NCBI GenBank assembly: GCA_029553475.1
Contig: JAKPKV010000048.1
Location: 62,001 to 126,000, forward strand
Direction of reading: 5' to 3'
DNA: 64,000 bases
DNA from: Armatimonadota bacterium
Lineage (GTDB): Bacteria > Armatimonadota > Hebobacteria > CAIYQO01
Shown: piece after piece, positions 23,425-50,629 of the stretch
Layout of the letters: the number at the start of each line of letters is the position of its first letter
Position numbering within the stretch: the stretch's first letter is position 1
The notes under the pieces: generated by a model
Database searches by the model: none
Seen by the model: only the letters and a program-made list of their open reading frames with translations
What the model was told of the DNA's origin: nothing
Made by a program: the position numbers and the translations under genes

Positions 23425-23438
23425 TTGTGTATACAGAA
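23425..23438 (-). promoter_or_regulatory. TGTATACA operator 1 (upstream of pseudopilin 1)
   Basis: The exact palindrome TGTATACA lies at 23428-23435, about 110 bases before the start of the pseudopilin gene. On the minus strand a weak -10 (CACAAT) overlaps it; no good -35 is seen. It matches six other sites in this locus. The rest of the 286-base gap between the two pseudopilin genes holds a GGTATATACC palindrome near 23538 but no other clear signal. Confidence 0.6.
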
Positions 23439-24768: not shown

Positions 24769-24867
24769 GTCGTCTCCTTTCATGCCTAGGATACCTGCCG
24801 CGGTGCCGGGGAACGCGCGATCCCTTCCCTGTCGCGTCCGTCCGCCGGCAACGCGAAGCATTATCAC

Positions 24868-24896
24868 ATTATGTATACACTATGGCGAGCTGTCAA
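24868..24896 (-). promoter_or_regulatory. Promoter with overlapping TGTATACA operator 2
   Basis: On the minus strand: TTGACA at 24896-24891, a 17-base spacer, CATAAT at 24873-24868. The palindrome TGTATACA at 24872-24879 overlaps the -10 box, as expected for a repressor site. It drives the second pseudopilin-LamG gene. Confidence 0.75.
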
Positions 24897-25005: not shown

Positions 25006-26148
25006 TTATCCGCCGCCGGACGCCGCCGCGTCGCCAAGGGCGCGCAGCACGCCCTCGGCCAGGCGACCGCCGATGTCGCGATACCGGGCCGGCGTCAGCA
25101 CCGTGCCGCGAATCTCCGCGTAGGGCGTCTCGAACGTGAGGGCGGGGATGCCCAGCCGGTGCGCGCAGAAATCGGTGATGGTGGGCGTGTCCCACCGCGA
25201 GGGATAGGTGGCGAAACGGCTGACCGGCTCCGCGACGTACTCCTCGGTCAGCGCCGCGCTGAAGGACTGTCCCCACTCGAGGGTGCGCCGCATCAGCAGG
25301 GCGTCCGCGGATACTGCCGGGAGAAAGGCGTAGACGCCGGCGGTCTCGTCGCCGCCGGGGGCGTGAAAGTCCAGGCAGAGCAGCGGGCGGCAGCGTTCGC
25401 GCCAGCGATGCAGGTCGTGCTGGATGGCGAGGATTTCGTGGCGCATGGGCGCCGCCCCCCAGGCGCGGTTCAGGTCATAGGGATAATTGTCCTTGCCGTA
25501 ATCCCCCTGGATGACGCCGTCGAGATTGGCCAGCGGCACCGACCAGACGAGCGGGGCGCGGTCGCCCGCCTCAGCCATCCGCCGCAGGAAGCCGTCCAGC
25601 ACCCAGGAGCCGGGGGTTTCGCCGGAATGCTGGCGGGCGAGGGTATAGACGCCGGGGCGCGCGTCGCCGGGGGCGCCGTAGGCGTTGCAAAGGCGCGTCA
25701 GCGGCCGTCCGGCCTGGCTCACGCCGATGACGTCGGCCCGCCAGCCCTCGCGCGCCAGTGCCGCCACTTCCTCCGGCCCGTACGGGTAACAGAAGGCGAT
25801 CTCCACCGGTTCGCCGGCGAGCTCCAGCGTCCAGAGGCCGGTCCACTGCCCGTCCGGCTCATCGCGCCGCCGGCCGGGCGGCAGGCGCTCCCACGCGCCC
25901 GCGCCGGCGCGCATCACCGGGCGCACGGTCTCGGGCGCCGGCCCGCCGAGCAGGTTCCCCATGTGGCGCAGCTCCCAGCGCAGCGGGCCGGCATAGCCCT
26001 CGCTCTCAATGCGGAAGCAGAACCAGAGCGCTTCCGGTCCGCCGTGGGGGTCGGCGGTCAGCGCGACCACCGGCATCGCCGCGTCCCGCGTCACGGTGAT
26101 GGCGCAGGCGTTGCCGGAGGGGATCTCCGTGGAAATATGGATCGGCAT
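25006..26148 (-). CDS. M14-family zinc carboxypeptidase
   Basis: A 380-residue protein with an AAAGGAA ribosome binding site. Residues 1-130 are a beta-sandwich like that before the catalytic domain of cytosolic carboxypeptidases. The M14 active site follows: ARQHSGETPGSW (zinc ligands His174 and Glu177), NLDGVIQGDYG..DLNRAW (substrate-binding Asn-Arg), FHAPGGDE (third zinc ligand His262) and TFETPYAE (Glu340, catalytic base candidate). No signal peptide, so cytoplasmic. It points away from the 1706-residue gene, with TGTATACA operator 3 between them. Substrate could be a peptide or an amide-linked glycoconjugate. Confidence 0.87.
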   Translation of the reverse strand: MPIHISTEIPSGNACAITVTRDAAMPVVALTADPHGGPEALWFCFRIESEGYAGPLRWELRHMGNLLGGPAPETVRPVMRAGAGAWERLPPGRRRDEPDGQWTGLWTLELAGEPVEIAFCYPYGPEEVAALAREGWRADVIGVSQAGRPLTRLCNAYGAPGDARPGVYTLARQHSGETPGSWVLDGFLRRMAEAGDRAPLVWSVPLANLDGVIQGDYGKDNYPYDLNRAWGAAPMRHEILAIQHDLHRWRERCRPLLCLDFHAPGGDETAGVYAFLPAVSADALLMRRTLEWGQSFSAALTEEYVAEPVSRFATYPSRWDTPTITDFCAHRLGIPALTFETPYAEIRGTVLTPARYRDIGGRLAEGVLRALGDAAASGGG

Positions 26149-26197: not shown

Positions 26198-26229
26198 TTG
26201 ACAACGGCAGCTTTATTATGTATACATGA
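26198..26229 (+). promoter_or_regulatory. Promoter with TGTATACA operator 3 over the -10 box
   Basis: TTGACA at 26198-26203, a 17-base spacer, and TATACA at 26221-26226. The palindrome TGTATACA (26219-26226) contains the -10 box, so regulator binding would block RNA polymerase. The site lies between the divergent M14 gene and the 1706-residue gene and could act on both. Confidence 0.82.
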
Positions 26230-26266: not shown

Positions 26267-29200
26267 ATGCGACGATCAGGCGGACAACAGCGGTGGCTGG
26301 GGGGCGCGGCCCCCGTGTGGGGCGTCGTGGTGCTCGGGCTGCTGATCGCGGCCGTCCTGCGCGCCGAGCCCCCGGTTGATTGGGAAGCCGCGCTCGCGGA
26401 TGCCGCGCGGGGCGAGACCGAGCTCCTCTACATCACCGAAGGCAAGCGCAGCCAGGAGGAGGTGCGCCAATTTTACGCCTGGATCATCCAGGAGTTTTCC
26501 GGCAGCGCGCTGGCCGCGCGGTTCCAACGCGAGCTGCTCGATGCGCACCTGCGCAAGGCGAAAGTCACCCGCGGGCTGATTACCACCGAGGCGCCGCTCG
26601 GCCCCGATGACGCGCCCGTTGATGTCCCGAATGGTGACCTCCAGCCGAAACGGACGAAATATACGGAGATGCTCGACGCCGTGGCGGCCTACGTGAAACG
26701 CTACGCCCCCTATGTGAAGTATTATCCCGTCGAGCACCTGCTCTGGATCGTGGAAAGCCCCGGCGCGCCTGACGAGGAGCGTCGCGCGGCGTTTGTCGCG
26801 CTGGCGCCGCTGCTGCGCCCGGGCATGGCGGAGTTCGCGAAGGCGAAAACGGCGCTCAGCGCGCTGCCGGTCTCCGCGAAAGAGCGCCTGGCCCTCGCCC
26901 GCACCGTCGCCGAACAGGCGAAAGCGGCGCCCGCCGCCCGCGCCTTCCATCTCTACTTTCTGGACGAGTACGCGCTGCGCGGCGCGGCGACGGACGCGCG
27001 CGCGGAATACCAGCGCTTCCTCCGGACCTACGGCGAGGATACCTCCGAAGGGCGCGCCGCCCGCCGCGCGCTGCTGCAACTGGAGGGTGAGGAAGGCCAG
27101 GCCGCGCTGGCGCGATTCGAGCAGGCCGAGCGCGCTGCGGCCGCCGCCATCCGCGAGACCTTTGCCGCCGTCCGGACGGCGTGTGCGGGCAAGGATACCG
27201 CCCGCGCAGTGCAACTGGCGACCGCCGCCATGGACACGTATCCGGCCTTCCAGACCGCGGCGGGCTGGCACGCGCTGCTGGCGGACCGTGATTTTCTCGC
27301 CGCCGCGCCGGAGGCCCAGTTGCCTTTCCTGCAGCTCGTCCTCACGTACGCGCCCGGCGGCGGCACCGAAGACACCGTCATGGCGCTGGCGCTCGCCCGG
27401 CAGCCGCCCGCGGCCTTCACCGCGCTGCTCGCCGCCTACGTGGCGAGCGACCGCATGGATCCCGCCGCCAAGCGCGCCTACTGCGAGAAGATGGCGCGGC
27501 ACGAGGCGGTGCGCGGGGAGGCCGCGCGCGGCCTGCTCATCAATTTCGGCCTGGGCGAGGCGCTCGACCGCCTGGGCATCACGGATGAAGCCGCCGACTA
27601 TTATTATACAGTTGGGCGGCAGGGGTGGAATACGCATCCCGAGCTGGGCGGGCGCGCGCTACAACGCGCCGCCGCCATGTCGCCGGGCAGCATCGGCGGC
27701 GCCTCCGCCGGCTGGCTGCGGGGCGTGCTCGCCGGCGAGCAGGGCTTCGCGTTGCCGCCCCTGGCGCGCGTCTTCCCCTTCCCGCCCGAGCGGAAGCTGC
27801 CGGCGCAGGTGATTCCCCCGCTGGAGGACGCCCGTCCGGCCTTCGCCGCCGCGGAAGGCGCCCTCGCGCCCGCCAGGCGCGCCCCGGAGGAGAATCTCGT
27901 CCGCGGGCAGCTTCCGCTGGGCGGGAGCGCGCAGGCCCTCGCCCTTGACGGCCAAACGGCAACCGTCTGGCAGCCCGCGGCGCTGCCGGCGCTGCTCACC
28001 GTGCCGCTGACGCGGGAGACGACGGTGCGGCGCATCGAGCTGCACTGCAGCCAGCCCGCCTATTTCACCGTGTCGCTGCTCGACCGCGCCGGACGCGTGC
28101 TGGCGAAATACGAGCGCGACTGGGCGTTTCAGGATTATCGCCGCACCACCGCCTACTGGCCGCCGGCATCGGTGACGCTCACCGTGCTGCCGGTGGACGG
28201 CGTGCGCTACGTACAGGTGGCGCTCTATCAATTCCAGCGCGCGGACGGCGGGGTGAAGGAGCTGGCGGTCTACGGCGCCGCCTATCCCATGCGCGCCGAG
28301 CACCTGCGCGAGCCGGCGGCGGTGCCCGCCGGGACGACGGCGCTGCGCCTGGCCTGGGAGGCGGAAGAGCCGGCGGGCACGGTCGTCTACGGCAAGGAGC
28401 TGGAATCGTCGCGCCATTTCTCGCCCGGTCGCCGGAACTTCACCTGGAACACGGGGATGGGGCATTACCACTACGGGGTGGAGTTCTACGGGGAGAACCT
28501 GTCCGCCGTGCTCAACTACGTCGGCATCCTGCGCTGGCAGATAGACGAAGGCCCGCTCCGGACCCTCGAACAGCCGCAGGATACACGGCGGAAAACGTAT
28601 ACGCTGGCGACAGGCCTATCACCCGGCCGCCACCTCCTGTGGGTGAGTCGGGCGGGCTTCCCGTCGAAGCGGGACCGGGGCGGCACGGGCAACCTGGAGC
28701 TCGCCGACGTGCGCGTGGAGGGGCAATGCCGGGTGCGTCCCGCCATCCGCTTCGCCGTCGGCGCGCGGTGGGGGCCGTGGCAGGGGCCATTCACGAGCCC
28801 CGCGGAGGCCATCGCGGCGGTGCCGGCCGGCGCCACGCGCTATCAGGTGAAAGTGGCGTTCGACAACCGCGAGATGCTGGGCGGGAAGACGGGCGTCCTC
28901 ACCGATCTCCGGGTGACGGCCGTATCCGCCGCGCCCGCGCCCGCGGCTCCGCCGAAGGAGTACCGCTGCGCGGAGACGCTGGAGGCCGCCGTACAGATCA
29001 TCGCGGGCCGCCGGGTGGCGGTGACCTACCCGAAACTCGGCACCCCGGAGGAATACGCGGCGGCGAAGGCGATCGCGGAGAAGGCCGGCGTCTACCTCGT
29101 GTCCGACGACCTCGCCCTCCTCGGCTTTCCCACGGTGCCTGTCGTCGTCGGCACGCCGCTGGGGCATCGCTACGCGCGGCTGGCTCCCGGCATGCTCGGC

Positions 29201-31387
29201 ATCTGGAACGATGCGGAGTACCTGAATACTCCTGACGGTCTGGTGCGCGCCTGCTATACGCCGAACGGCGATCCGCGCTGTGTCTTCGTCATCGGCGAGT
29301 CGCCGGCGGCGGTCGCGCGCGCCGCGGAGCGGCTGGCGCAAGCCCTGCCCGCCTACGTGCCCCCGGCGGCGCCGCTGCGCACCTTCGCCTCGCACACGCT
29401 GGAGACCATCCACGCCTGGCAGACGCATCTCGAGCGCCCGCCGGTGCAGCGGTTGGCGCTGCGGATGGGCATCAACGACCGGCGCTCGCTGCAGTTCGGG
29501 CTGGCCGCCAACCACACGCTGACCGCGTTGCGCATCACCGGCGGCCCGCTGCGCGCCGCCGGGGGACGGGAGTTGCCCGCCGCCCGGATACGTCCCGTGG
29601 GATTTTATGACTTCGCGGCCCAGTATGGCGACCTGCGCATCCCGAACGCGCTCATCACGGCCCCCACCGTGCCGATGGCCGCGCAGACCGCCACCGGCGT
29701 GTGGGTGACGGTGCAGACGCCGAAAAACGCCGTCGCCGGCGTCTATCACGGCACGGTCACGCTCAGCAGCGGCGCCTTCACGCAGGCCATTCCGCTGGAG
29801 GTCACGGTGGAGCCGATCCCTTTCCCGGCGGGCACCCGCGCGCGCTTCGGCAGCTTCTCCTCCGCCAGCACGCACTGGTTCAATGAGGACCCGGACTTCG
29901 TGAAGAGGGCCCATCGCGCGCGCGCAGAAAACGAGGCGGAGCACGGCCTGAATTATATCGGCGTGCCCATGCACTGCACGGTGACGGACCGCGAGACGGG
30001 GCAGCCCCCGGCGAAGTGGGCCGCCTTCGGCGGGCACGGCGTGGATGAGCCGCAGCCCGATGGCGACAAGGGGCTGGGCGTGGATGACGAGCCGGCCGTG
30101 ACACCCGAGCCCGGCAAGACGCCCGCGCCGCCCGCCGTCAGGATGGACGCCCTACCCTGGAAGCGCTACGACGATGGCGCCGGCATGCCGGTCGGCCTGC
30201 ATGGCGCAGGGTATCTCGATTTCGGCAAACCGGTGACCGTCCGGGAGATTGCCGTCTCGCTGCGCATCTACACGGGCAGCAAACTCATCATCGGGTGGCT
30301 CGCGCCCGATGGCGCGTGGCAGGAGAGCGCGCCGCAGGCCGCCGCGCAGGTGATGTCCTGGGCGCGTAATCCGCTGGATGGGGATTTCCCGCCCGGCGCC
30401 ATCGTCTTCCGGCTCAACGGCAACACCAGCCGGTATTTCCGCCTGCGCACCGACACCGGGCGGGGGATTGCCGTCTCGAAGGTGCGGGCGTTCACCGATA
30501 TGGCGCGCAGATGGCCCGTCACCTACGATTTCTCGGCGACCGAGGCGCTCTTCGCTATCTATGACGACGTGTTCCGCGAGAAAGGGCTGCCGTTGCCCAC
30601 GCTGCTCACCTCGGTGGGCGGCATGCTCGGTGACAGCAATGGTGACCGGACCATCTTCGCCGAGCAATTGCTGGCGCGGCTGCAGGCGGCGGATCGCCAG
30701 GGCCGCGTGGTCCTCACCATCGGAGATGAACCGGGTGATATCACGCACTGGGCGGAGATCTCGCGGCCGTATCGAGAAGCCGGCCTGGTCACCTCCGTCT
30801 GTCACTCGGGCAACTACCCGAATATCGCGGATGCCGTCGGCGTGTTGAACCCCTGGTGTCCGAACTACCAGCACAACGTGCAGCGTCCCTTCTTCCGCGA
30901 GCGGCAGCAGGCGGGAGACACCGTGCTCTGGTACTGCTGCGGCGTGCCGAATACCCAGCTCTCCGGCCGCCCGCTGGATAACCTGGCGTTGTACTGGATG
31001 ACGGCCAAATGGCGCTTTGACGGCGGGCAAAGCTACGCCGCGCAGGATACCAACCCCGCGCTGCACACGCTGCCCTTCCGCTATGCCGAGGGATTGGACC
31101 ATCGCTACGTCTACCTGCCCGACGCCACCATCCTCGACACCACCCGGCGGGAGCTGGAGGCGGAGGGCATCCGGGATTACGCCCTCGTCGAGTATCTTCG
31201 CGACCAGTACCCCCGCCTGCGCGCCGCGAACGCGGACGCGCTGGTCGCGACGCTCGAGCGCAGACTCGACGAGATTTTCGAGCAGGTCGTGCCGTACCGG
31301 TATGGGTATGCCGACGCGCCGGACACCTGGTTCGCGGGGCGGGACGCCCTCTACGACCTGGCGATCCGGGCGACGAAGGGCGAGTAA
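26267..31387 (+). CDS. Giant secreted multidomain protein (TPR-like, discoidin-like, DUF4091-like)
   Basis: A 1706-residue protein with GGAGGG before the ATG and a signal anchor or signal peptide (VWGVVVLGLLIAAVLRAEP). Residues about 35-480 are alpha-helical repeats. Residues about 550-690 look like a discoidin/F5-8-type module (TTVRRIELHCSQPAYFTVSL); 690-900 beta-rich modules follow. Residues about 1190-1270 contain the linker phrase 'NAVAGVYHGTVTLSS' with a beta-sandwich as in DUF4091 proteins, and 1380-1430 another discoidin-like part. The C-terminal 260 residues resemble a TIM-barrel end. A role in binding and attacking a complex extracellular glycan is likely; no catalytic residue can be assigned. 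Confidence 0.65.
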   Translation: MRRSGGQQRWLGGAAPVWGVVVLGLLIAAVLRAEPPVDWEAALADAARGETELLYITEGKRSQEEVRQFYAWIIQEFSGSALAARFQRELLDAHLRKAKVTRGLITTEAPLGPDDAPVDVPNGDLQPKRTKYTEMLDAVAAYVKRYAPYVKYYPVEHLLWIVESPGAPDEERRAAFVALAPLLRPGMAEFAKAKTALSALPVSAKERLALARTVAEQAKAAPAARAFHLYFLDEYALRGAATDARAEYQRFLRTYGEDTSEGRAARRALLQLEGEEGQAALARFEQAERAAAAAIRETFAAVRTACAGKDTARAVQLATAAMDTYPAFQTAAGWHALLADRDFLAAAPEAQLPFLQLVLTYAPGGGTEDTVMALALARQPPAAFTALLAAYVASDRMDPAAKRAYCEKMARHEAVRGEAARGLLINFGLGEALDRLGITDEAADYYYTVGRQGWNTHPELGGRALQRAAAMSPGSIGGASAGWLRGVLAGEQGFALPPLARVFPFPPERKLPAQVIPPLEDARPAFAAAEGALAPARRAPEENLVRGQLPLGGSAQALALDGQTATVWQPAALPALLTVPLTRETTVRRIELHCSQPAYFTVSLLDRAGRVLAKYERDWAFQDYRRTTAYWPPASVTLTVLPVDGVRYVQVALYQFQRADGGVKELAVYGAAYPMRAEHLREPAAVPAGTTALRLAWEAEEPAGTVVYGKELESSRHFSPGRRNFTWNTGMGHYHYGVEFYGENLSAVLNYVGILRWQIDEGPLRTLEQPQDTRRKTYTLATGLSPGRHLLWVSRAGFPSKRDRGGTGNLELADVRVEGQCRVRPAIRFAVGARWGPWQGPFTSPAEAIAAVPAGATRYQVKVAFDNREMLGGKTGVLTDLRVTAVSAAPAPAAPPKEYRCAETLEAAVQIIAGRRVAVTYPKLGTPEEYAAAKAIAEKAGVYLVSDDLALLGFPTVPVVVGTPLGHRYARLAPGMLGIWNDAEYLNTPDGLVRACYTPNGDPRCVFVIGESPAAVARAAERLAQALPAYVPPAAPLRTFASHTLETIHAWQTHLERPPVQRLALRMGINDRRSLQFGLAANHTLTALRITGGPLRAAGGRELPAARIRPVGFYDFAAQYGDLRIPNALITAPTVPMAAQTATGVWVTVQTPKNAVAGVYHGTVTLSSGAFTQAIPLEVTVEPIPFPAGTRARFGSFSSASTHWFNEDPDFVKRAHRARAENEAEHGLNYIGVPMHCTVTDRETGQPPAKWAAFGGHGVDEPQPDGDKGLGVDDEPAVTPEPGKTPAPPAVRMDALPWKRYDDGAGMPVGLHGAGYLDFGKPVTVREIAVSLRIYTGSKLIIGWLAPDGAWQESAPQAAAQVMSWARNPLDGDFPPGAIVFRLNGNTSRYFRLRTDTGRGIAVSKVRAFTDMARRWPVTYDFSATEALFAIYDDVFREKGLPLPTLLTSVGGMLGDSNGDRTIFAEQLLARLQAADRQGRVVLTIGDEPGDITHWAEISRPYREAGLVTSVCHSGNYPNIADAVGVLNPWCPNYQHNVQRPFFRERQQAGDTVLWYCCGVPNTQLSGRPLDNLALYWMTAKWRFDGGQSYAAQDTNPALHTLPFRYAEGLDHRYVYLPDATILDTTRRELEAEGIRDYALVEYLRDQYPRLRAANADALVATLERRLDEIFEQVVPYRYGYADAPDTWFAGRDALYDLAIRATKGE

Positions 31388-31420: not shown

Positions 31421-32686
31421 ATGACGACACAGCGGCCGATTACCGTGGCCATCATCGGCGCCGGAGGGCGGGGACGGGGGTTTGCCAGCCTCATTCAGCA
31501 GGCGGGGTATGCCGGATTGGGACAGGTGGTCGGGGTGGCCGAGCCGGACGACGCTTACCGCGAGCAGGTGCGCGAGCAGTGTGGCCTCGATGCGGCGATG
31601 GTCTTTCGCAGTTGGCAGGAATTCGTGGCGCAGCCCAAACGCTGCGACGCGGTGGTGATCAGCACCATGGACCGCGACCATGTCGGGCCGACGGTGGCCT
31701 GCCTAGAGCAGGGCTACCACGTGCTGCTGGAGAAGCCGATGGCCACCACGCTGGAGGACTGCCGGGCCATTGAGGCCGCCCAGCGCAGGGCCGGCACGGT
31801 GGTGGCCGTCTGCCATTCCCTGCGCTACCACAAGAAATTCGCCAGGGTGAAGGCGCTCATTGACGCCGGGCGCATCGGCGAGATCGTCACCGTTGATCAG
31901 CTCGAGCAGGTGGCCTTCTGGCATCAGGCGCACAGCTTCGTGCGCGGCAACTGGGGCAACGCGGCACGGTCTACCTTCATGCTGCTGGCGAAGAGCTGCC
32001 ACGACATTGACTATATCTGCGACCTCGTCGGCCGCCCCTGTCTGCGCGTCTCCTCCTTCGGCTCGCTGCGCTACTTCACCGCCGAGCATGCCCCCGCCGG
32101 CAGCACCGCGCGCTGCACCGACGGCTGCCCGGTGGAGCGCGAGTGCCCCTATTCGGCGATTCGGACCTACGTGGAGGCGGAACGCCTGGACTGGTGGCCG
32201 GCCTGCACGGTGAGCGCCGTCCACACGAAAGACGCGCACCTGGCGGCGATTACCACGGGGCCCTACGGCCGCTGTGTCTTTCGCTGCGATAACGACGTGG
32301 TGGATCACCAGGTCGTCATCATGGAGTTCGACGGCGGCGTCACCACTACCTTCACCATGACGGCGTTCACCCAGGGCGGCGACCGCAAGGTGCGCGTGCA
32401 CGGCACCGAAGGCGAGATCGCCATGGACGCCGCCGCAGTGACGCTGCGCACCTTCGCCGACACTACCGTGGAGACCATCGCCCTCGGCGAAGAGCCCGGC
32501 GGGCACGGCGGCGGCGACTGGCGGGCCGTGAGCGCCTGGCTGCGCGCCATCGTGAGCGGCGACCGCTCGCTCGTGCTCACCGATGTCCAGGAATCGCTGA
32601 GCTCGCATGCCATCGTCTTCGCCGCCGAACGCGCCCGCCGCGAAGGCCGCGTCGTGGAGCTGGCCGAGCTCGCCGCCTGTCCCTAG
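31421..32686 (+). CDS. Gfo/Idh/MocA-family oxidoreductase
   Basis: A 421-residue NAD(P)-dependent oxidoreductase starting 33 bases after the 1706-residue gene, so probably in the same transcript from the operator-3 promoter. It has the Rossmann start VAIIGAGGRGRGFA, the catalytic YHVLLEKPMATT and the SCHDIDYICDLVG motif (H-D-x-D) of the C-terminal domain. An insert at about residues 225-250 holds four cysteines (RCTDGCPVERECPYSA), which could bind metal. Likely dehydrogenates a sugar or inositol released by the locus. Confidence 0.9.
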   Translation: MTTQRPITVAIIGAGGRGRGFASLIQQAGYAGLGQVVGVAEPDDAYREQVREQCGLDAAMVFRSWQEFVAQPKRCDAVVISTMDRDHVGPTVACLEQGYHVLLEKPMATTLEDCRAIEAAQRRAGTVVAVCHSLRYHKKFARVKALIDAGRIGEIVTVDQLEQVAFWHQAHSFVRGNWGNAARSTFMLLAKSCHDIDYICDLVGRPCLRVSSFGSLRYFTAEHAPAGSTARCTDGCPVERECPYSAIRTYVEAERLDWWPACTVSAVHTKDAHLAAITTGPYGRCVFRCDNDVVDHQVVIMEFDGGVTTTFTMTAFTQGGDRKVRVHGTEGEIAMDAAAVTLRTFADTTVETIALGEEPGGHGGGDWRAVSAWLRAIVSGDRSLVLTDVQESLSSHAIVFAAERARREGRVVELAELAACP

Positions 32687-32761: not shown

Positions 32762-32798
32762 TTGACAGCGGCGACGCGGCATGTTAATGTATACATAA
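32762..32798 (+). promoter_or_regulatory. Promoter with TGTATACA operator 4
   Basis: TTGACA at 32762-32767, a 17-base spacer, TAATGT at 32785-32790, with TGTATACA at 32788-32795 overlapping the 3' end of the -10 box. The layout is almost identical to the promoter at 43750-43786. It drives the 732-residue protein gene and perhaps the damaged genes after it. Confidence 0.8.
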
Positions 32799-32864
32799 TA
32801 AGATGTCTGATAAATAGTATACCGAAAACGCCGCGCCATCGCGGCGCGCCCGGGGAGGACGAGG

Positions 32865-35063
32865 ATGAACAGGCCCAAAATCGCGCTGCCGCCCTGCGGC
32901 ATCTTCATCGGCACCGGAGTCTATCCCATGAGCGGCGACTACCTCCTCTGCACGCTGCACGGGCACCAAAGCTGGGCGCCGCAGACCTGCGATCCGCTGG
33001 AGATGATCGAGAAAGTGCTCGCGGACAACCAGGGCAACCTGGTGCAGTTCTGGGGGTATGCCCGCGGCTCCGCGCCGGCGACCATTGCGCGCTGGATCTA
33101 CGCCCTCGATGAGATCGGCGTTGACGTGCCGGAACCCAACTGGGACGACGGCACCTATCTGCTGCCGGAGGAGTGCGCGGAGATCACGGCGCACGCCGAC
33201 CGCCAGGGCGCCGGCGTGCTGCGCTTCATGAAAGCCGCCGCCGCGCGCGGGTTGTATACCACGCTGCTCTACGTGGATGGCCTGCCGCAGTGGTCGGCGC
33301 GCTTCAAGGAGCTCGGCGAGTACTACCTCGGCTACGACTTCGGCGAGCGGTACAGCTTCGCCCTCGACAACGCCGCTCTCCGCGGCAAGGACCTGGCGGA
33401 GGTGACGCTGCGGGAGCTGGCGGACGATGTGATCGCCCGCGTCCGCGCGCACGTGGATGAGCGGCACGCCACCGGCTGGGGCTACGTGATGGCGACCAGC
33501 GCCAACTTCTTCATTGATTACGAAATCGCCGCCGGCGCCGATATTCCCGTCGTCGAGGATTTCGCCTTCCGCCACCTCAACTTGGCGTCGGCGCTCTCCC
33601 GCGGGTTGTACCGCCAGCACGATCTCCCCCTGTGGGGGTCGCACCTGGCGCACGAGCACTATTCGTGGATTCCCTACGCATGCGCGTATAAATTTCCGCT
33701 GCTCACCGCCGCCATGTACCAGAAATATATGTCCGGCAGCAAGATGATTATCAACGAGAGCGGCAACTGGTTCGTCGAGGTGACGCTCTGCGAGGACTCG
33801 CCGAAATACACGCTGCCGCGCGTGGACCTGCCGCACCACCGCCTGCGCCGGGAGCCGCAGCTCTTCGCGCCCTATATCGCGGAAGCGCGCCAGTATTTCC
33901 CTCACATCGGGTATGACGCCCCGGAATGCCGGCGCTATCGCGAGACGATCGCCGACTTTTATGATTTCGTGAAGGCCAACGGCACCCCCGACGGCCAACC
34001 GGAAACCACCATCGCCATCGCCAAGGGGAACCTCGATCTGTGCGGGCACCGGTACAGTCCCACGCACGCCATCGCCGGCGCCTACGCCCTCGCCGATCGC
34101 AATCCCCACTGGTTCGAAGGCGCGCCGGAGCGCGGCTGGGAGATCGTGAAAGCCGTGTTCTTCCCGCTGCATCCGATCATGGGCGACTATCCCAACTTCT
34201 TCCTGTCCGGCACGCCATACGGCATGGTGGATATCGTCAGCTTCGCGCAGGACAGGGTGGAGGCCGATTTCCTGGCGGCCACCTACCGGGCGCTGCTGTT
34301 CGGCGGGTGGAACACCGCCTCGCCGCGGCAGTATGCCATCCTCACGCGCTACGTCGCCGCCGGCGGCACGCTGTTTATCGGCATTCCGCACCTGTCCACG
34401 AATATCCGCCGTAACTACGGCAGCTATACCGTGGATGAGCTGGTGCATGGCGGCGATCTGTCCGAGCTCTGCGGCGTCAGGGTGAAGGGGCCGGGCGAGC
34501 GCTTCTACTGGGCGACGGCGCCGTATGGCTCGTCCGAGCTGGGCTTCACCTTCCCCCGGCGCTTCGGCATCATGGCCACCCGCATGGGCGACATCGCGAT
34601 CACCGATCCCGCGGCGGAAATCCTCGTGGTGGATGACGAACAGGCCGCGCCGCTGCTGCTGCGCCGCCGCTATGGGCAGGGCACCGTCTATTTCCTCAAT
34701 TCCTGGGACTATCCGGGCGCGATGGATACGGACGAAGGCCCCGGCAGCCGCGTCGGCGCAAAAGGGGTGATTGGCGCCATCTACCAGCATATCGCCACCA
34801 CCTGCCGGGGCAGCGTCTGGATCACTGATGACCGGCACCTGCCCGGTCGCGAGTGCGAATTCATCTGCTACGCCTACTTCCCGGAGGCGAAGCGCATCTG
34901 TCTCCAGAACGTGGATTTCCGGCAGGCGCACCGCTGCTGCCTGCATTACGCCGGAAAGGCCGAGCTGATCGAGCTGGCGCCCGCCGAGTTCCGCATGCTG
35001 GACGCGGCGCCGGAGACCGATCGGCATGGCGCGCGCCCCGGCGCGCGCGGCGATGTCCGCTGA
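32865..35063 (+). CDS. Unrecognised 732-residue protein, possible glycosidase-like barrel
   Basis: No family is recognised with confidence. The protein lacks a signal peptide and has a GGGGAGGACGAGG region before its ATG. Residues 1-450 read like an alternating alpha/beta barrel (DPLEMIEKVLADNQGNLVQFWGY, ATSANFFIDYEIAAGADIPV, SGSKMIINESGNWF). Residues about 470-620 look like the Rossmann-type glutamine-amidotransferase-like domain seen behind beta-galactosidase barrels (YVAAGGTLFIGIPHLSTN, then RRYGQGTVYFLNSWDYPGA). The C-terminus is a small beta domain. This order resembles GH42-type enzymes, but no catalytic glutamate pair can be placed. It is driven by operator 4. Confidence 0.6.
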   Translation: MNRPKIALPPCGIFIGTGVYPMSGDYLLCTLHGHQSWAPQTCDPLEMIEKVLADNQGNLVQFWGYARGSAPATIARWIYALDEIGVDVPEPNWDDGTYLLPEECAEITAHADRQGAGVLRFMKAAAARGLYTTLLYVDGLPQWSARFKELGEYYLGYDFGERYSFALDNAALRGKDLAEVTLRELADDVIARVRAHVDERHATGWGYVMATSANFFIDYEIAAGADIPVVEDFAFRHLNLASALSRGLYRQHDLPLWGSHLAHEHYSWIPYACAYKFPLLTAAMYQKYMSGSKMIINESGNWFVEVTLCEDSPKYTLPRVDLPHHRLRREPQLFAPYIAEARQYFPHIGYDAPECRRYRETIADFYDFVKANGTPDGQPETTIAIAKGNLDLCGHRYSPTHAIAGAYALADRNPHWFEGAPERGWEIVKAVFFPLHPIMGDYPNFFLSGTPYGMVDIVSFAQDRVEADFLAATYRALLFGGWNTASPRQYAILTRYVAAGGTLFIGIPHLSTNIRRNYGSYTVDELVHGGDLSELCGVRVKGPGERFYWATAPYGSSELGFTFPRRFGIMATRMGDIAITDPAAEILVVDDEQAAPLLLRRRYGQGTVYFLNSWDYPGAMDTDEGPGSRVGAKGVIGAIYQHIATTCRGSVWITDDRHLPGRECEFICYAYFPEAKRICLQNVDFRQAHRCCLHYAGKAELIELAPAEFRMLDAAPETDRHGARPGARGDVR

Positions 35064-35089: not shown

Positions 35090-35955
35090 ATGGCGGGACG
35101 ATGGCTGACGGTGCTGTGTTGTCTGGTCGCCGCGGCCTGCGTCGGGGCGGGGGAGCCGGCCTGGCATGACGGCTTCGAGCGCCGCGCGCTCGCGGAGTAT
35201 CTGCTCGGGCCCGCGCCCCCGGCGTCAGCCTGCTGCAGGTCGGGGAGGATGGCGGCATGGCGCTCCGCCTGGCGCCGGGCGCGGCGGAGGTGGTCCTCAC
35301 AGAGATAGCGGTCGAGCCCGGCGTGAAGTACCGCCTGGAATTCGCCGCGACGGCCGAGGGTCCGGTGAGCGCCGCGCCCCCCGGCTGGGAGATTCGCCTG
35401 CGCAACGCCAGGCACGAGGTGCCGTATGGCGGGCACCTGAAGAGCGCCTGGCAGCAATGCCGCGCCGCGGAATGGGGCGTCTACCGGCAGCGCTTCTATA
35501 CGCCCGGCGACGCCGTGACGCTGCAGCTCCGTTTCGTCAATCCCGGCGGGGCATCCACGCTGACCGTGGATGCCGTGACACTGGAGCGCTGCGACGAGGA
35601 GAATCTCCTCGCCAGCGCGGAGACGTTCGCCGGCGCGGGTGATTATTCGGGCTGGTCGGAGACGAGCAAAGCGGGCATCGTGGCGACCGACGGCCCATGC
35701 GTCCTCCGCGTCAATCCCGGCGGCTACGCGCTGACCGACCCGATTCCCGTGGCGCCCGGCGACGACCGCGTGGCCGGGAACAAACCGAACGCTGCCGCGT
35801 TCTTCTACGCTGCCGACATGCGCCGCATCGGCGTCGGCAACTGGGCGAACGCGACCTTCACCGCGCCGCCGGGCTGCGCCTACGCGCGGCTGTTTTTCGG
35901 CCCCGGGGACATCGAAAGCCTGACGGTGACCCGCGTCCCGGAGGTGAAGCCATGA
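35090..35955 (+). pseudogene. Secreted protein gene with a frameshift in a C-run
   Basis: The ATG at 35090 opens a signal peptide (WLTVLCCLVAAACVGAGEP) and EPAWHDGFERRALAEYLLGP, then the frame is lost near 35215-35222 in a run of five Cs. The continuing frame reads GVSLLQVGEDGGMALRLAPG and runs to 35955; one extra C would restore a single 289-residue protein. The product is beta-rich, like a carbohydrate-binding module. The gene ends in a 4-base overlap with the DUF4838 gene. The opening after the signal peptide resembles that of the gene at 38027. It may be a real mutation or a sequencing error. Confidence 0.7.
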
Positions 35956-43591: not shown

Positions 43592-43623
43592 TATTGTATA
43601 CACATAAAAGCGGGCGCTGTCAA
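43592..43623 (-). promoter_or_regulatory. Promoter with TGTATACA operator 5
   Basis: Minus strand: TTGACA at 43623-43618, a 17-base spacer, TATACA at 43600-43595; the palindrome TGTATACA (43595-43602) contains the -10 box, exactly as in operator 3. It drives the membrane protein-FAD oxidoreductase-GDPD operon. It is 180 bases from the divergent operator 6. Confidence 0.82.
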
Positions 43624-43749: not shown

Positions 43750-43786
43750 TTGACAGACGACAGGCGCTTTGTTAATGTATACATAA
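43750..43786 (+). promoter_or_regulatory. Promoter with TGTATACA operator 6
   Basis: TTGACA at 43750-43755, a 17-base spacer, TAATGT at 43773-43778, and TGTATACA at 43776-43783, in the same geometry as operator 4. A related GGTATACG sequence follows at 43797-43804 and may be a weaker second site. It drives the gene at 43881. Confidence 0.82.
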
Positions 43787-43880: not shown

Positions 43881-46800
43881 ATGAGACTCTCCGCTCTGCT
43901 CCCGCTGGCGCTGCTGGCCTGCCTGGGCTGGGGCGCGCGCGCGGCGGGCCAGGTGGTCTTTCACGAGACCTTCAATCACTACGGCATCGCCATGCCCGGC
44001 TTCTCGGACGCCTGCGTGACGGCGGAATATCCCCCGAGCCTGAAATACCTGGAGTTCCGTCCCGCGACAGCCGCCAGCGTCTACGCCGGCGGCATGTGCC
44101 AGCTTCCCATGCGCGCGCGGGGGCTGACCGATTTCGAGTTCAGCTTCACCTTCCGGTTCCTGCGCGATGCGCCGAAGACGCTGGACGTGCGGCTGGAGTT
44201 CCTCCTCGATACCAGTGGCCGGCAGCCGAAATACGCCACCTGCACCGTGCGCCTGGCCGCCGACTGGAGCGGCGTCGCCGGCGTGAGCAATTTTCATCCC
44301 CAACTCCCCCCGACGCGCGTGACCATGCGCGACACGCCGCTCAACCCCTTGCTGGGCGGCCAGTGCTACCGCGGGCGCCTCCGCGTGCAGGGCAACAGCC
44401 TGGCGGCTTACGTCGAGGGCGCGGGGCAGCGCGTGCGCATCGGCGGCGCCGAGCTCCCCGCCGCGCCGCTGGCGGGCTTCAACTTCGCCGGCGCCAGCGG
44501 TTTCGATCTCGATGACATCATCATCCGCCAGCTCCCCGCGCTGCCCGGCGGCGATTTCCGGGAAGAGAGCGGCGCGGCGATTGCCAATCGTGCCGCGGAA
44601 TACCTGCTGACCATCCCGCCGGCGGCCAACGTCGCCCGCGCGAAGGTTCGCCTGGGCGCGCCCGGCGCCATGCGCATCAATCTGCGCTGGGATGACGGCG
44701 CCGCCACCCCGATCACCGTCACCACCGTGAACAGCGGGCTCGACCTGCCGGTGGTGAAGAGCGTGCCGGTCGCGAGAGACGGCCAGACGGTGATGGAAGC
44801 GAAGCAGGTGAAGGAATATACGCCGCTGCCGGACGCCGGCCTGCGCTTCGACGGCCTTTTTGCGCAGCGCGGCACGCTCACCTGCCACGTCCGTCCGTGG
44901 ATCGAAGGCTACGGCGACCCGGAGATGTTCGGCCCGCCCAACGACCCGCGCGGCCTGGACCGGGTGAGCGTCGCCCGGAGCTGGGAGCGCTACGAAGCGG
45001 CCTCCCGGCACTGTTTCACCTTCGAAGTGCGCCGCGACGCCGCCGGTATCGAATACTGGATTGACGGGCGCTATGCGGGTCGCCGTGATAACGCCGCGGC
45101 GCTGACCGGCATCGGCTTCCTGCTGCCCGCCGGCGGCGCGGTGAAGGACGCCGCGACCGGGACGCTCAAGCAGGCGGGCGGTTTTTTGCCGCTCGATATC
45201 ACCGCGCTGGCCAATCCCGGCGTGATGGCCGCCGCCGTCCTGCCGCTGAAGAGCGGGCCGCAGGTCGTCAAGGGCATCCCCCTGCACGTCGCGCCCGCCG
45301 CGGCGAACCTCGACCTCGGCGCGGTGCGCGAGAACCTCGGCTCCTACTGGCTGGAGTGTGACGGCTACCTGTCGCGCTCGGCCTTCAGCGGCATGCCCGA
45401 ATCGCTCATGCTCTCGGTGCCGAACGCCCAGTACCGGAAGGCGTATGTCCTCTGCGCGGTGGCGGATGACCCGGCGCGCGATCCCATCCTCACCGTCCGC
45501 CTCACCCGCTTCCTGTCCGCCGGCGCCGGCGGGCGCGGCCCGGCCATCGCCGACACCACCGTGGCGCTGCCGCGCGCCGCCGTTGGCAAGCTCCCGCCCG
45601 GCGTCACCGCGCTGGGCCAGGTCGCCTATACCGTAGATGGGCAGCCGCGCACAGCGCCGCTCTACCTGGTGGACGTGCCCATTGACTGCGGCAGCATTCA
45701 GGATGTCATCTTCGAGGAAAAGTCGTTCGCGATGATCCCGCAGCCCTACCTGGACATCGAGGTGCTGGGGAAATGCGACCGCGCCCTGCAGCAGATGAAC
45801 CGCGCGCACAAGCCCGACCCGACCTCGACCAGCGCCGTGCACGTCTTCGGCATCACGCTGGTGAAGTCGCCGGTGGAGCTGGAAGTCGTCCCCGCCCGCG
45901 AAGGCAACGCCTATTACACGCACGAGCAGGCGGCGATGACCGCCGTGCTGCGGGCGCGGGAAAAGGCGAGCTGCCGCCTGCGCTGGGAGGTGCGCGACGT
46001 GGACGGGAAGGTGGTGGATGCCGGCGAGACGCGCCGGCGCTTCGTCGAGCCCGGCGAGGAGCGCGTGGCGGTGAAACCGAACGTCAACGACGTCGGCCTC
46101 TACACGCTGCACTTCCACCTGCTCGACGACGAGCAAGGCCCGCTGGTGGCGCACCGGGCGACGATGGCGCTGGTGGCGCCGGACACCCGCGCCGCCGGCT
46201 ACGCATCGCCCTACTTCACCTGGTGGTTCAACGGCGCCCACCTCACCAGCAGCGACATCACCGTCGTCGGCCCGCTGCTGAAGATGGCGGGCATCCGCCG
46301 CACGCTGGTGAAGGACGAGGCCGTCGGCGAGCCGTGGACATTGACCATCGGGCAGATCGGCAGCTTCGCCGGCGCGGTGCCGCCCGACCAGCTCGCGGCG
46401 AAGACGGCCGAATACGCGAAAAAGATTGACGACGCGATGAAAGCCTTCCCGCACGCCGACGCGGCGAACATCTTCCACGAGAGCTGCAACGGCGGCGGCA
46501 TCGCCCCGCTGGAGCTCTACGGCATCGCGGTGCCGTGCCCAGCGACGAGCGCCTGCTGCGGGCGCAGCAGCAGCAGGTGGCGGGCGCCATCCTCGCCGCG
46601 CGGCTCTACCGCGAAACATATCCGCAAGTCCGTCCCACGCTGGTGAATACCGGCGACTCGCTGGCCGGCGCGGCGATGCTCATGCGCCACAAGATGCCGA
46701 AGGAACTCGTCACCGCCTTCGGCGACGAGGCGCTCGGCCAGACGGTGCCGCCGGAGATGCATACCGCCTACAACGCCTGGGCGCTGCGCGAGCTGTCGCG

Positions 46801-48049
46801 GAAGATGGGCTATGGCGACGTGCCGGTTGACGCCTGTTACGAATGGAAAGGCCGCAATATCCGCGACTTCGGCGAACGACATGCCGCCGCCTGGCGCCAG
46901 CGCGACGCCCTCATTGCCCACGCCTGGCACTACCGCCTGGTGCCCGTCACCGGCCTCATCGAGCCGGGGAACAGCTATCACAATACCGTCTGGGGCGACG
47001 ACTGGATGTTCAGCCGCTCCCCGCAGAATTATCCGCGCATGAGCTTCGTCACCACCGCGCACCTGACGCAGGTGCTGGACGGGGCGCAATGCGCCCGCCG
47101 GCTCGACACCGGCTCGCTCACCGTCTACGGGCTCGAATTCACCCGCGGCCAGGGGCGCGTCTACGCCTTCTGGACGGTGCGCGGCACGGCGGAGCTGACC
47201 GTGACCTTCACCGGCGAGGCCGCGGTGCGGCAGACTGATATGTTCGGCCGCGCCCAGGCGCGTCGGACGAACGGCAACGCGCTCGCGCTCGCCATCTCCG
47301 GCGAGCCGATCTACCTGGAAACGACGGGGCAGGTGGCGGCGGTGACCGTCGGCCGGCGCGCGTATCCGGACGATGCCGTGCCCGCGGGCGCCACGGTGCA
47401 GGTGGCGGAGGCCATGGAGGCCGCCGACCGCTGGCAGATGAGCGACAAACCGGACGACCGCCTGCAAAATGAGCCGAAACTCGATAACCGCAGCTATCTG
47501 CCGTACCGCGTGCTCGGCGCGTATGCCCTGCGCGAGGTGGCCGATGCGGAAAAAGGCGCGTGCCTGGAGCTCGAGCTGCTGCCGGAGGGCGACGTGGTGC
47601 CCTTCCTGCCGGAATATACCGTGCTCAAGCTCAAACAGCCCGCGCCGATTGCCGGCGAGCCGCATACCGTCGGCGTGTGGGTGAACGGCAACTCCGGCTG
47701 GGGACAGGTGATGTGGGAATTCACCGATGCCGAGGGCGAAAGCTGGCTCTCCTGCGGCACCGGCGGCTACTGGTGCGATGTCTACGACTGGCCGAAGCAG
47801 GCGTCCATCAACTTCGACGGCTGGAATTTCGTGCAGTTCCCCATCACCCAGGCGTCGCCCGTGCGCCTGCCGAACCCCGGCGAGGTCTCCGAGCAGTGGC
47901 GCAGCGGCGGCGGCAACGGGCGCATTGATTATCCCATCGCGCTCACCGGCCTGTCCGTCAACATGACCCGCCAGGCCCTCAACCTCACCGAGATGCAGCC
48001 GGTGAAGACCGTCATCCGCCTGAAGGACCTGTCCGCCTACGGTAATTGA
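43881..48049 (+). pseudogene. Giant secreted glycosidase-like protein gene with one frameshift
   Basis: The ATG at 43881, after AAAAGGGGA, opens a signal peptide (LLPLALLACLGWGARA). The first frame runs about 884 residues of beta-sandwich modules, then a barrel-like part (PYFTWWFNGAHLTSSDIT, NIFHESCNGGGIAPLELYGI). At about 46533 the frame shifts; the other frame continues PSDERLLRAQQQQVAGAILA to 48049, adding about 505 residues (YGDVPVDACYEWKGRNIRDF, then beta modules). One extra G in CCGTGCCC would join both parts into a protein of about 1389 residues. Either a recent mutation or a sequencing error. Family not recognised; a glycoside hydrolase with binding modules is likely. Confidence 0.7.
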
Positions 48050-48180: not shown

Positions 48181-49425
48181 ATGCCTACGCCGCAACAGCA
48201 CACCATGACCGAGCCGCTGGACGTCTGCCTGCGGCGCGCCGGCTCCACCTACCAGCCGGCGGCGCCGGAAGACCTGCCGCGCGTCATCGCCGCCTTCAAC
48301 GCCTTCGCGGGCGAGGTGGAAGCCACGGCTGACGGCTGCGAGATCGTCCGCATCGTCGCCGGACATATCAACACGACCTTCGGCCTGCGGCAGACCGCCG
48401 GCGGGCTGGCGTATATCGTGCAGCGCATGAACACCATCTTCGATCTCGACGCCATCGCCGGCAACCTGCGCCTGCTGGAAGAGGCGCAGGCGGCAAGCGC
48501 GGCGCTGCTGCCCGACCACTGGCAGCCGGTCTCCTATCTGAACGCGCGGGACACCGGCGCGAAGCTCTGGTTCGACGCCGCCGGCGCCGGCTGGCGGGTG
48601 ATGCGCTACGTGCCGGGCGAGATTCGTATCTTCAATCATTTCGGGATGGTGCCCGCTGAGATGACAGCGGCGGTGGCGCGCTCGCAGGGCGAGGCCATCG
48701 CCATCTTCGGGCGCATGCTGGAGGCGATCCCGGAGGAGCGCTGGCGCGCGCCGCTGCCCCACTTCCACAATACGCGCTACCACCTGGACTACCTGGATGC
48801 CATCCTGCGCGGGGAGCGGGTGCCCTTGAGCCTGAGCCGGGGGGCCGGCCGCATGGTGACGGCGGAGCCGGCGTTCCTGCGGGCGCATGCCGGCCGGATT
48901 GATGCCCTGCGCGCGAAGATTGACGGCTGGCGCCGGTTGGCGGGCAGCCTGGATGCCCTCGGGCGTGCCGTGACGCATGGCGACACCAAGATCAACAACT
49001 TCGTCTTTCGCCGCGGTGACGATGGCGCGCTGCGCTGCGTCTGCCTCATTGATCTGGATACCGTGCAGTTGGGCAACCGGCTGGACGACCTGGGCGATGC
49101 CCTGCGCTCCGCCGGCAACCCGGCCGGCGAAGAGCCGCCGCGTCTTGATGATGTTGCCATTGACGCGGGCATCGTCGAGAACCTCATCGCGGGGTATCGC
49201 GCGCAGGCGCGCGCCTTCTACGGCGCGGCGCGGGCGGATGCGCTGTGCGCGCGCGCCCGCGAAGCCTATCAGCAGTTCCTCTACGCGCAGTGCGTACGCT
49301 TCTTCGCCGATGCCCTGGTGGGGAACGTCTACTTCGCGCTGAAGCCCGGTCTCCCGGCGGACATCAACCTCTACCGCGCCGAAGTGCAGATGCGCGCCCT
49401 GGAGCTGCTGGCGCGCGGGGCGTGA
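48181..49425 (+). CDS. Aminoglycoside-phosphotransferase-fold sugar kinase, N-acetylhexosamine 1-kinase-like
   Basis: A 414-residue protein with an AAAAAAGGA ribosome binding site. It has the kinase-fold ATP site near the N-terminus (AGHINTTFGL...YIVQRMNTIF), the catalytic loop VTHGDTKINNFVF (H-x-D-x-K-x-N-N) and the metal-binding LIDLDTVQLGNRLDDLGDAL. The H-G-D-T-K-x-N-N and D-L-D-T-V-x-x-G-x-x-x-x-D-x-G-D pairing is typical of N-acetylhexosamine 1-kinases (NahK/LnpB) that phosphorylate GlcNAc or GalNAc at C1. The call rests on motifs; another sugar or an aminoglycoside is possible. It sits between the giant secreted protein and the regulator. Confidence 0.72.
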   Translation: MPTPQQHTMTEPLDVCLRRAGSTYQPAAPEDLPRVIAAFNAFAGEVEATADGCEIVRIVAGHINTTFGLRQTAGGLAYIVQRMNTIFDLDAIAGNLRLLEEAQAASAALLPDHWQPVSYLNARDTGAKLWFDAAGAGWRVMRYVPGEIRIFNHFGMVPAEMTAAVARSQGEAIAIFGRMLEAIPEERWRAPLPHFHNTRYHLDYLDAILRGERVPLSLSRGAGRMVTAEPAFLRAHAGRIDALRAKIDGWRRLAGSLDALGRAVTHGDTKINNFVFRRGDDGALRCVCLIDLDTVQLGNRLDDLGDALRSAGNPAGEEPPRLDDVAIDAGIVENLIAGYRAQARAFYGAARADALCARAREAYQQFLYAQCVRFFADALVGNVYFALKPGLPADINLYRAEVQMRALELLARGA

Positions 49426-49490: not shown

Positions 49491-49547
49491 TTGACAACGC
49501 GAGGGAATTTGCCCATGATAAGGCCATGACTAAAGCTGTATACACAA
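49491..49547 (+). promoter_or_regulatory. Promoter and TGTATACA operator 7 of the regulator gene
   Basis: TTGACA at 49491-49496, a 17-base spacer, CATGAT at 49514-49519; transcription should start near 49526. TGTATACA at 49537-49544 lies just downstream, where bound protein could block elongation. It overlaps the first codons of the regulator gene if the ATG at 49526 is used, or lies in the leader if translation begins at 49556. This indicates autoregulation. Confidence 0.75.
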
Positions 49548-50629
49548 ATACGCCGATGCCGCGCGCGAAATGGAAACAGGTGCTGGAGCTCGTGCTGCGC
49601 GAGCTCGCGGACGGCACGCTCGCGCATGGCGCGCAGTTCTACACGCTGGAGCAACTGTGCGCGCGGTATCACGTCAGCGATATCACCGGGCGGCGGGTCT
49701 TCAGCGAGCTGAAGGCGCGCGGGCTGATCGCCTCCAAAGGGCGCCGGGGCACCACCGTCATCGGGCAGGCCGTCACCCAGGATGTCTTCATGTGCCTGCC
49801 GAATATCTACTTCGAAAACGGCTCCAGCGGCGTCAGCCGGTATCACTCGTTCCAGCGCCTCTTCGAAGGCTTCGGATCGGACAATTACGCCCAGTTGTTC
49901 CGTGTGCTGCCGATTCCGCTCGCTTTTCTCCAGGAGAATCTCGCCACCTTCGCCGACAAGCACGTCATCATCAGCGCGGAAGCGCTGGTGGATTTCACCC
50001 AGCAGCCCAGCGTGCTCAACACCGCGCTCATCGCGCAGTTGCGCGACAGCGTGAACCCGATCGTCTTTGACAGCTACGGCGATATCCCCGGCATCACCCA
50101 GGTGGGGGTGCATTTCGCCCTCGGCATTCGCAAAGCCGTCAGCCATCTCGTCCGCCGGGGGCATACCCGCATCGGCTTATTCACCGGCGACGTGAACGAT
50201 TTTTGGCTGCAGCCGCGCTTCACGGGGTTCGTGGAAGGCATGTTCGCGGAAGGGATGCGCTTTGATCCCAGCCTGCTGCTGATGACGACGGATCTCGAGC
50301 GCGAGAAGAACATCCCGGCGATCCATGAGTATCTCAGCCGTCCCCAGCGCCCCACCGCCATCGTCTGCACGAGCGATTCGCGGGCGCTCTTCGTGCTGGA
50401 ATATTGCCGCGCGCGGGGGATCGCTATCCCGGATGCGCTGGCGGTCACCGGTTTCGACAATATCCCCGAGGCGTCTCTCGTTTGGGCGCCGCTCACCACC
50501 GTGGACGGCATGGAAGTGCAGATCGGGCGAAAGACCCTGGAGTTGCTGGTCGCGCGCCGGCAGGACAAGTTGAAGGAACCCTGCGAAGTGACCATCGAGC
50601 CGGAGCTGATTACGCGCGTCTCCGGGTAA
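49526..50629 (+). CDS. GntR/LacI-type (AraR-like) transcriptional regulator
   Basis: A 367-residue protein with a GntR-type winged helix at residues about 12-80 (KWKQVLELVLRELADGTLAH, then LEQLCARYHVSDITGRRVFSEL and GLIASKGRRGT) and a LacI/PBP1-like sugar-sensing domain at 90-365 (HLVRRGHTRIGLFTGDVNDF, AIVCTSDSRALFVLEYC, LAVTGFDNIPEASL, LTTVDGMEVQIGRKTLELL). This is the domain order of AraR. It is expected to repress in the absence of a sugar effector. A TGTATACA site lies at its 5' end and six more lie at promoters or 5' regions of the locus, so it is the obvious candidate regulator. The start may be the ATG at 49556; the one at 49526 would be nearly leaderless. Confidence 0.9.
   Translation: MTKAVYTNTPMPRAKWKQVLELVLRELADGTLAHGAQFYTLEQLCARYHVSDITGRRVFSELKARGLIASKGRRGTTVIGQAVTQDVFMCLPNIYFENGSSGVSRYHSFQRLFEGFGSDNYAQLFRVLPIPLAFLQENLATFADKHVIISAEALVDFTQQPSVLNTALIAQLRDSVNPIVFDSYGDIPGITQVGVHFALGIRKAVSHLVRRGHTRIGLFTGDVNDFWLQPRFTGFVEGMFAEGMRFDPSLLLMTTDLEREKNIPAIHEYLSRPQRPTAIVCTSDSRALFVLEYCRARGIAIPDALAVTGFDNIPEASLVWAPLTTVDGMEVQIGRKTLELLVARRQDKLKEPCEVTIEPELITRVSG

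Follow-up and report, generated by a model that had tools for sequence, protein, structure and literature searches.

A putative cytoplasmic glycosidase of an undescribed family in an operator-marked gene group of an Armatimonadota genome

We propose that the 732-residue protein encoded at 32865..35063 (+, stop included) of the window, i.e. the whole stretch of 64,000 nucleotides analysed here, is a cytoplasmic enzyme of an undescribed family that acts as a trimer, either as an exo-glycosidase or possibly as a phosphorylase, and that its gene belongs to one substrate-induced regulon. We put the probability of this reading at about 0.6. By "undescribed" we would mean a family with no entry in the libraries searched, the architecture itself appearing to be of a known kind. 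The open reading frame, the family, its conserved residues, the operator set, the identity of a kinase encoded nearby and a weak relation of the C-terminal half to GH42 and GH112 were computed directly. We favour a glycosidase-like enzyme because polar residues of the sort found in active sites are invariant in the 15-member family, and because the proposed domain order is that of the enzymes Bs164 and Op5Man5, with similar domain sizes. An M14 peptidase and a secreted protein of 1400 residues travel with the family elsewhere and therefore support this explanation; against it speaks the outcome of sequence searches in PDB, which gave no convincing barrel match.

If the proposal is true, it adds a new glycoside-active family, whose candidate active site can guide mutagenesis, and an amino-sugar regulon that is self-contained and has seven mapped operators. 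The wider superfamily is widespread, with matches in 48 of 387 sampled genomes in the phylum of a Lentisphaerota relative, so that many hypothetical proteins could be annotated with the help of a single assay.

Gene, family and distribution

The reading frame is uninterrupted, its homologues are collinear with it over the full length, and a Shine-Dalgarno sequence GGAGG (32854..32858, +) can be read from the sequence 6 nt before the ATG. An antisense frame of 873 residues lies opposite the gene (GC content of the window is 68%), and antisense frames are open over relatives of the gene too; most simply, the antisense frame is a by-product of high GC content. The sense reading is preferred because of its start signals and domain matches. 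The gene is present in one copy in its genome, and its GC3 of 0.873 resembles the 0.877-0.912 of four neighbours.

The sequence-only reading had described the protein as devoid of a signal peptide, unlike its secreted neighbours. Its lack of a signal peptide was confirmed by a simple Kyte-Doolittle scan, not by SignalP: the best N-terminal 12-residue hydropathy is 1.6, as against 3.3 for the upstream 1706-residue protein and 2.7 for the downstream protein. The contrast with the neighbours holds for these two proteins but fails for two others, namely the adjacent upstream Gfo/Idh/MocA oxidoreductase (31421-32686) and an M14-like peptidase (25006-26148), neither of which has a signal peptide by the same scan. 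One member of the family (L057:6276-8438, -) has what looks like a signal peptide, MMVAAVSVMAAVSLFA, and a cytoplasmic location is therefore not the rule for every member; another (L053:8188-10476, -) has at its N-terminus a tail of about 35-45 residues, rich in lysine, alanine and proline. The two genes directly downstream in the window (35090-37849), one for a signal-peptide protein from 35090 and one for a DUF4838 protein ending at 37849, are broken by frameshifts, whereas the 732-residue gene and its upstream neighbours are intact.

The protein is no orphan, as had been thought at first: 14 further full-length relatives exist, with 39-65% identity to it, and none of them comes from the phylum of its own genome. 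The idea of a new family fared better, as no Pfam or NCBIfam family was matched; the protein alone found no family in Pfam, NCBIfam, PHROG or PDB, and in the literature searched we recognised no paper on its family. Scanning of contigs brought up one locus, L001 from a Lentisphaerae MAG, with 66% identity over the best segment; there, two gene copies lie 3.7 kb apart and a third is located elsewhere in the same genome. Among 291 genomes of the window's own phylum, 14 contain any match at E<=0.001, and the full-length type occurs only in the genome of the window itself; the other matches fall mainly within residues 345-625 at 25-41% identity. In the phylum of L001, 48 of the 387 genomes sampled match the family profile, ten of them with the full-length type. 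No relatives were found in viral collections, and the plasmid collection gave a single partial match (E 1e-3 over 85 residues). In the tree, L050 and L051 form a group with the window protein; its support, 94/94, is below the starred level. Distribution and tree would together suggest horizontal transfer of the gene into this genome, which we do not claim.

The 15 full-length proteins, including that of the window, form alignment A2. Further related groups were aligned as A3 (8 rows), A4 (5 rows) and A5 (14 rows), and this wider superfamily shares both main regions (A2 against A3, E 3e-45; A2 against A5, E 6e-46). With N-terminal halves alone, profile comparison of A2 gave 99.8% with A4, 96.7% with A3 and 77.6% with A5, while reversed controls, run against A3 and A5, reached at most 0.2%. 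The A5 proteins (L035-L049) are open frames of about 1000-1400 residues with an extra N-terminal region followed by the same two regions; they are common in the phylum to which the Lentisphaerota relative belongs, and their catalytic-like half has no Pfam family.

Domain plan and likeness to known enzymes

We suggest that the protein consists of an N-terminal (beta/alpha)8 catalytic domain with a glutamate active site, an amidotransferase-fold trimer domain and a small C-terminal beta domain. A barrel followed by an amidotransferase-like domain, as in GH42-type enzymes, was also the order given in the sequence-only reading; profile comparison points weakly to its second element, whereas the barrel is deduced and has no link by profile to a known one.

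The putative barrel covers residues 8-345 (32886..33899, +) and is read from the alternation of strands and helices together with conservation in the superfamily. In a simple propensity profile, strands 1-3 and 8 are clear and the others weak; hydrophobic alternation thus described is plausibly that of eight beta/alpha units. AlphaFold models, computed with three rows each, had pLDDT of 35.2 for the whole protein and 36.7 for the N-terminal 366 residues, and these low-confidence models agree in part with the eight-unit reading. Foldseek with the low-confidence N-terminal model was uninformative, with a best E of 0.95 and several TIM-barrel entries among top matches. When the N-terminal half was compared by hhalign with 14 GH42 proteins, nothing stood clearly above the reversed control, the GHL6 profile scored no better than that control, and 13 GH112 proteins gave 2%. 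The missing barrel match is a weak negative, because the same method joined GH42 and GH112 only through their C-terminal parts and missed their barrel as well; the two families are alike in structure according to PMC8106489.

The amidotransferase-fold, GH42M-like (trimerisation-type) domain was placed at about residues 373-640 (33981..34784, +) by PF08532 matches and profile comparison, and the small beta domain at about residues 641-716 (34785..35012, +) by profile alignment with the C-terminus of GH112. The GH42 trimerisation domain PF08532 matches 8 of the 15 A2 members at E<=1, the window protein not being among them even at E 1. In a rescan of ten of the 15 members five matched, and only L060 rose over the curated cut-off (36.5 bits, cut-off 25.8). 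At E<=0.1 the domain was found in 11/14 A5 and 6/8 A3 members. Profile comparison of the A2 C-terminal half gave 85% with GH42 and 68% with GH112, the latter at 23% identity in an alignment of 233 columns that extends to the end of GH112. PDB searches with A3, A4 and A5 returned middle domains of GH42 with E between 0.0016 and 0.5, the best of them with A3; nothing convincing came from the single sequence, A2, A7 (described below) or A8. We conclude that the C-terminal half is probably related, weakly, to the trimerisation domain of GH42 and GH112. The cysteine of class I glutamine amidotransferases is absent from the window protein at the presumed elbow, where none of the four positions that come after the strand behind the conserved GG is a Cys (GGTLFIGIPHLS). 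L057 has ICHLS at the presumed nucleophile elbow.

Several known enzymes share this order of domains. The GH164 beta-mannosidase Bs164 (6T5O) is composed of a barrel (22-389), a trimerisation domain (390-609) and a small beta domain (610-681), in the order and with lengths similar to those proposed here, as given in PMC7105311. Its chain was absent from PDB matches at E<=10 for A2, A4 and A7 and at E<=1 for A3 and A5, GH164 being otherwise compared by description. Op5Man5, an exo-mannosidase of GH5 that comes from a verrucomicrobial gut symbiont and forms a GH42-type trimer, has domain A (2-364) followed by domain B (367-586) in the same order, yet differs in belonging to GH5, in its catalytic Glu156 and Glu281 on strands 4 and 7 and in having no C-terminal beta domain (PMC8233224). 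GH42 beta-galactosidases (PF02449 + PF08532) resemble our protein in the order and size of its proposed domains and appear related to it by profile in the middle domain, but their barrel has no detectable relation to the N-terminal half. GH112 enzymes have a GH42-like architecture, are intracellular and work with NahK, as PMC8106489 reports, and the C-terminal 270 residues of our protein family can be aligned with them; the barrel, in contrast, is not relatable by profile.

Membership in GH42, GHL6 and GH112 was rejected. GH42 was discarded because PF02449 matches none of the 15 members, the N-terminal hhalign scores stay at the level of the reversed control and the Asn-Glu motif is absent; GHL6 (PF14871) was dropped with no Pfam match and the hhalign result given above, and GH112 with no PF09508 match in the 15 members and a barrel at 2%. 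GH156 sialidases occur in the same phyla (PMC6254351) and were considered for that reason, then dropped, as no sequence link to the 732-residue protein was seen. We infer an unclassified family whose architecture is of a kind already known, with a likeness in action to GH42, GH164, GH5 and GH112.

Candidate active site and competing explanations

Forty-one aligned N-terminal halves (A7; the A4 row L033, a near-copy of L031, was omitted) include members whose identity to the query falls to 17%. N58, E161, E231, R246, W257 and G291 are invariant in all 41. Assuming strand numbers from the sequence, Glu161 (codon 33345..33347, +) would close strand 4 and Glu231 (33555..33557, +) strand 6, both being Glu in 41/41 rows, while Glu298 (33756..33758, +) would close strand 8 and is Glu in 40/41, missing in L003. 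Glu264 (33654..33656, +), at the presumed end of strand 7, is Glu in 19/41 rows only: in 15/15 of A2 and 4/4 of A4, but in 0/8 of A3 and 0/14 of A5. The trio E161/E231/E298 is thus better conserved than the pair E161/E264, and we regard it as the candidate active site, one unlike the standard pair of clan GH-A. Because the strand numbers are a reading of the sequence, both assignments stand: E161 may act with E231 (and E298), or it may act with E264.

The second assignment would make the protein a retaining glycosidase of clan GH-A that has diverged beyond sequence recognition, with E161 on strand 4 as acid/base and E264 on strand 7 as nucleophile. Such an enzyme would share the architecture of Bs164, neither E161 nor E264 varies among the 15 family members or the four A4 rows, and the identity to GH42 can be as little as 12-17% for GH-A barrels that carry this trimer domain, as the Op5Man5 study shows (PMC8233224). 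We nevertheless consider it doubtful: all 22 A3 and A5 rows have Gly, Ser, Gln or His at position 264, while E231 and E298 are conserved. Furthermore, the sequence before the acid/base does not fit. Bs164 uses Asn159-Glu160 on strand 4 and Glu297 on strand 7, whereas here Gly160-Glu161 (15/15 A2 members, on the presumed strand 4) and Glu298 on the presumed strand 8 are found; GH42 differs in the same way, with Asn where we find Gly before the strand-4 Glu, and in the other conserved Glu. The spacing of 103 between E161 and E264 is also shorter than the 125-157 calculated from the residue numbers of Op5Man5, Bs164 and the GH42 enzyme 5E9A.

A GH112-like phosphorylase, in which phosphate would split a disaccharide ending in N-acetylhexosamine and the NahK-like kinase would take the amino sugar, fits the presence of such a kinase in the same regulon, the partnership of NahK with GH112 in the bifidobacterial LNB/GNB pathway (PMC8106489) and the alignment of the C-terminal 270 residues to the end of GH112 (68% probability, 23% identity). 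It is made improbable by the absence of Lact_bio_phlase (PF09508) from all 15 members and by the 2% of the barrel comparison, and neither a uridylyltransferase nor an epimerase gene was identified adjacent to the 732-residue gene. Similarly small is the chance that the protein cleaves no glycosides at all and is another TIM-barrel enzyme, or a binding or scaffold protein which keeps the trimer domain. Fold and activity are predictions, and sequence and profile searches found no significant homologue of the barrel, which suits this explanation; the glutamates invariant across 41 divergent members speak against it, as do a regulon for sugar use and neighbours that are glycan enzymes.

We can offer a further and rather tentative generalization. 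The superfamily unnamed in Pfam and NCBIfam might be GH42-shaped, with a three-glutamate centre E161/E231/E298 at the ends of strands 4, 6 and 8 in place of the clan GH-A pair, and might release intracellular N-acetylhexosamine for a NahK-type kinase. No less tentatively, it would be spread over the phylum of the window genome, Lentisphaerota and their relatives.

The operator set and the genes behind it

The operator that had been ascribed to the gene is there, and it belongs to a larger set than was first noticed. A -35 hexamer TTGACA (32762..32767, +) ends 19 nt before ATGTATACAT, and the operator TTAATGTATACATAATAA (32784..32801, +), with its core TGTATACA at 32788-32795, overlaps the expected -10 region. 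With up to 3 mismatches, TTAATGTATACATAATAA has three copies in the window (26213 on the - strand, 32784 and 43772), compared with 0 in 100 shuffles; its 15-bp version with one mismatch allowed occurs at those three places only in 5.27 Mb. The core TGTATACA is present at 7 sites in the window, where 0.04 are expected, and at 9 in the 5.27-Mb genome. At five of the seven (24872, 26219, 32788, 43595 and 43776), TTGACA is found 11-20 nt upstream, on the same strand as the gene that follows; this hexamer has only 10 occurrences per strand in 64 kb. Since seven of the nine operators of the genome are gathered here, five with a well-placed TTGACA and one in the start of a regulator gene, the regulon proposed from the sequence is strongly supported.

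Apart from the site of the 732-residue gene, cores precede a pilin-like gene at 22107-23318 (23428..23435, -, with no TTGACA), another pilin-like gene beginning near 24780 (24872..24879, -, TTGACA 11 nt upstream), the gene for the 1706-residue GH123-like protein (26219..26226, +, 15 nt), that of a DUF6785 membrane protein (43595..43602, -, 15 nt) and a secreted protein gene at 43881-48049 (43776..43783, +, 20 nt). The last core (49537..49544, +) lies 11 bases into a regulator frame, behind TTGACA at 49491. This regulator (49526..50629, +) joins a GntR helix-turn-helix (Pfam 4.3e-8) to a LacI-type sensor (Peripla_BP_3, 2.1e-29), and it is likely a repressor. Repressors of GntR/LacI type for sugars, such as AraR, have palindromic operators at promoters and in their own gene. 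The regulator shares with the AraR type this combination of domains; it would also share the palindromic operators at promoters and in its own gene, and would differ in its operator, TGTATACA. The simplest reading is that one autoregulated repressor acts on the TGTATACA sites; the pairing of this regulator with them is drawn from position, because the genome holds 25 matches to the LacI-type sensor domain. The loci of the relatives contain no ATGTATACAT, nor does any notable long palindrome precede their genes, and the operator is therefore local to the window genome.

The first gene behind the operator at 26219 codes for the secreted 1706-residue protein (26267..31387, +) with a weak match to GH123_cat (1.2e-5), and GH123 is a family of beta-N-acetylgalactosaminidases. 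Pilin-like proteins behind operators carry lectin-like domains; the Gfo/Idh/MocA oxidoreductase, the M14-like peptidase and the DUF6785 protein are likewise situated behind operators or just downstream. The M14-like carboxypeptidase (25006..26148, -) has homologues near the family gene in L001 (two copies), L050 and L056. The secreted protein of about 1400 residues (43881..48049, +), split into two frames here and with no Pfam match, has homologues in L055, next to the family gene, and in L050, a short distance downstream of it. A NahK-like N-acetylhexosamine 1-kinase is encoded at 48181..49425 (+; PDB 4ocu, E 5.9e-24; APH family in Pfam), and in L058 a kinase of this kind lies 0.8 kb downstream of the family gene. 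Among 14 family neighbourhoods including that of the window, M14 homologues were found in at least four, the 1400-residue protein in at least three and the kinase in at least two, these counts being lower bounds as several neighbourhoods end at contig ends. The kinase in the same stretch suggests amino-sugar glycans as substrate, and together with GH123 it gives a hint of N-acetylhexosamine.

On these grounds we propose how the regulon might operate; the barrel, catalysis, trimer, substrate and pairing of repressor with operators are its inferred parts. The repressor would bind TGTATACA palindromes that cover the promoters and the start of its own gene, and would be released on binding of a sugar or its derivative. 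Secreted enzymes of the regulon would then trim a glycan outside, and small pieces would enter the cell. There, in the cytoplasm, the 732-residue protein would act as a trimer and finish them at a site built on glutamates, and the NahK-like kinase would trap the released N-acetylhexosamine by phosphorylation.

Some minor observations concern the surrounding genes. The kinase gene at 48181-49425 is called by Pfam only as APH phosphotransferase and gets no name from NCBIfam. The gene at 43881-48049 contains one frameshift near 46.55 kb, due to sequencing error or decay, and its halves align end to end with the 1382-residue protein of L055 at 32.6% and 43.2% identity. GH109 is a family of NAD-dependent N-acetylgalactosaminidases, and another Gfo/Idh/MocA oxidoreductase, at 16037-17587, matches the GH109 C-terminal domain with 26.4 bits, just under the cut-off of 27. 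A true GH42 gene (G000:C131:54210-55292; PF02449, E 8.8e-110) is located on the same contig, about 6.7 kb left of the window start.
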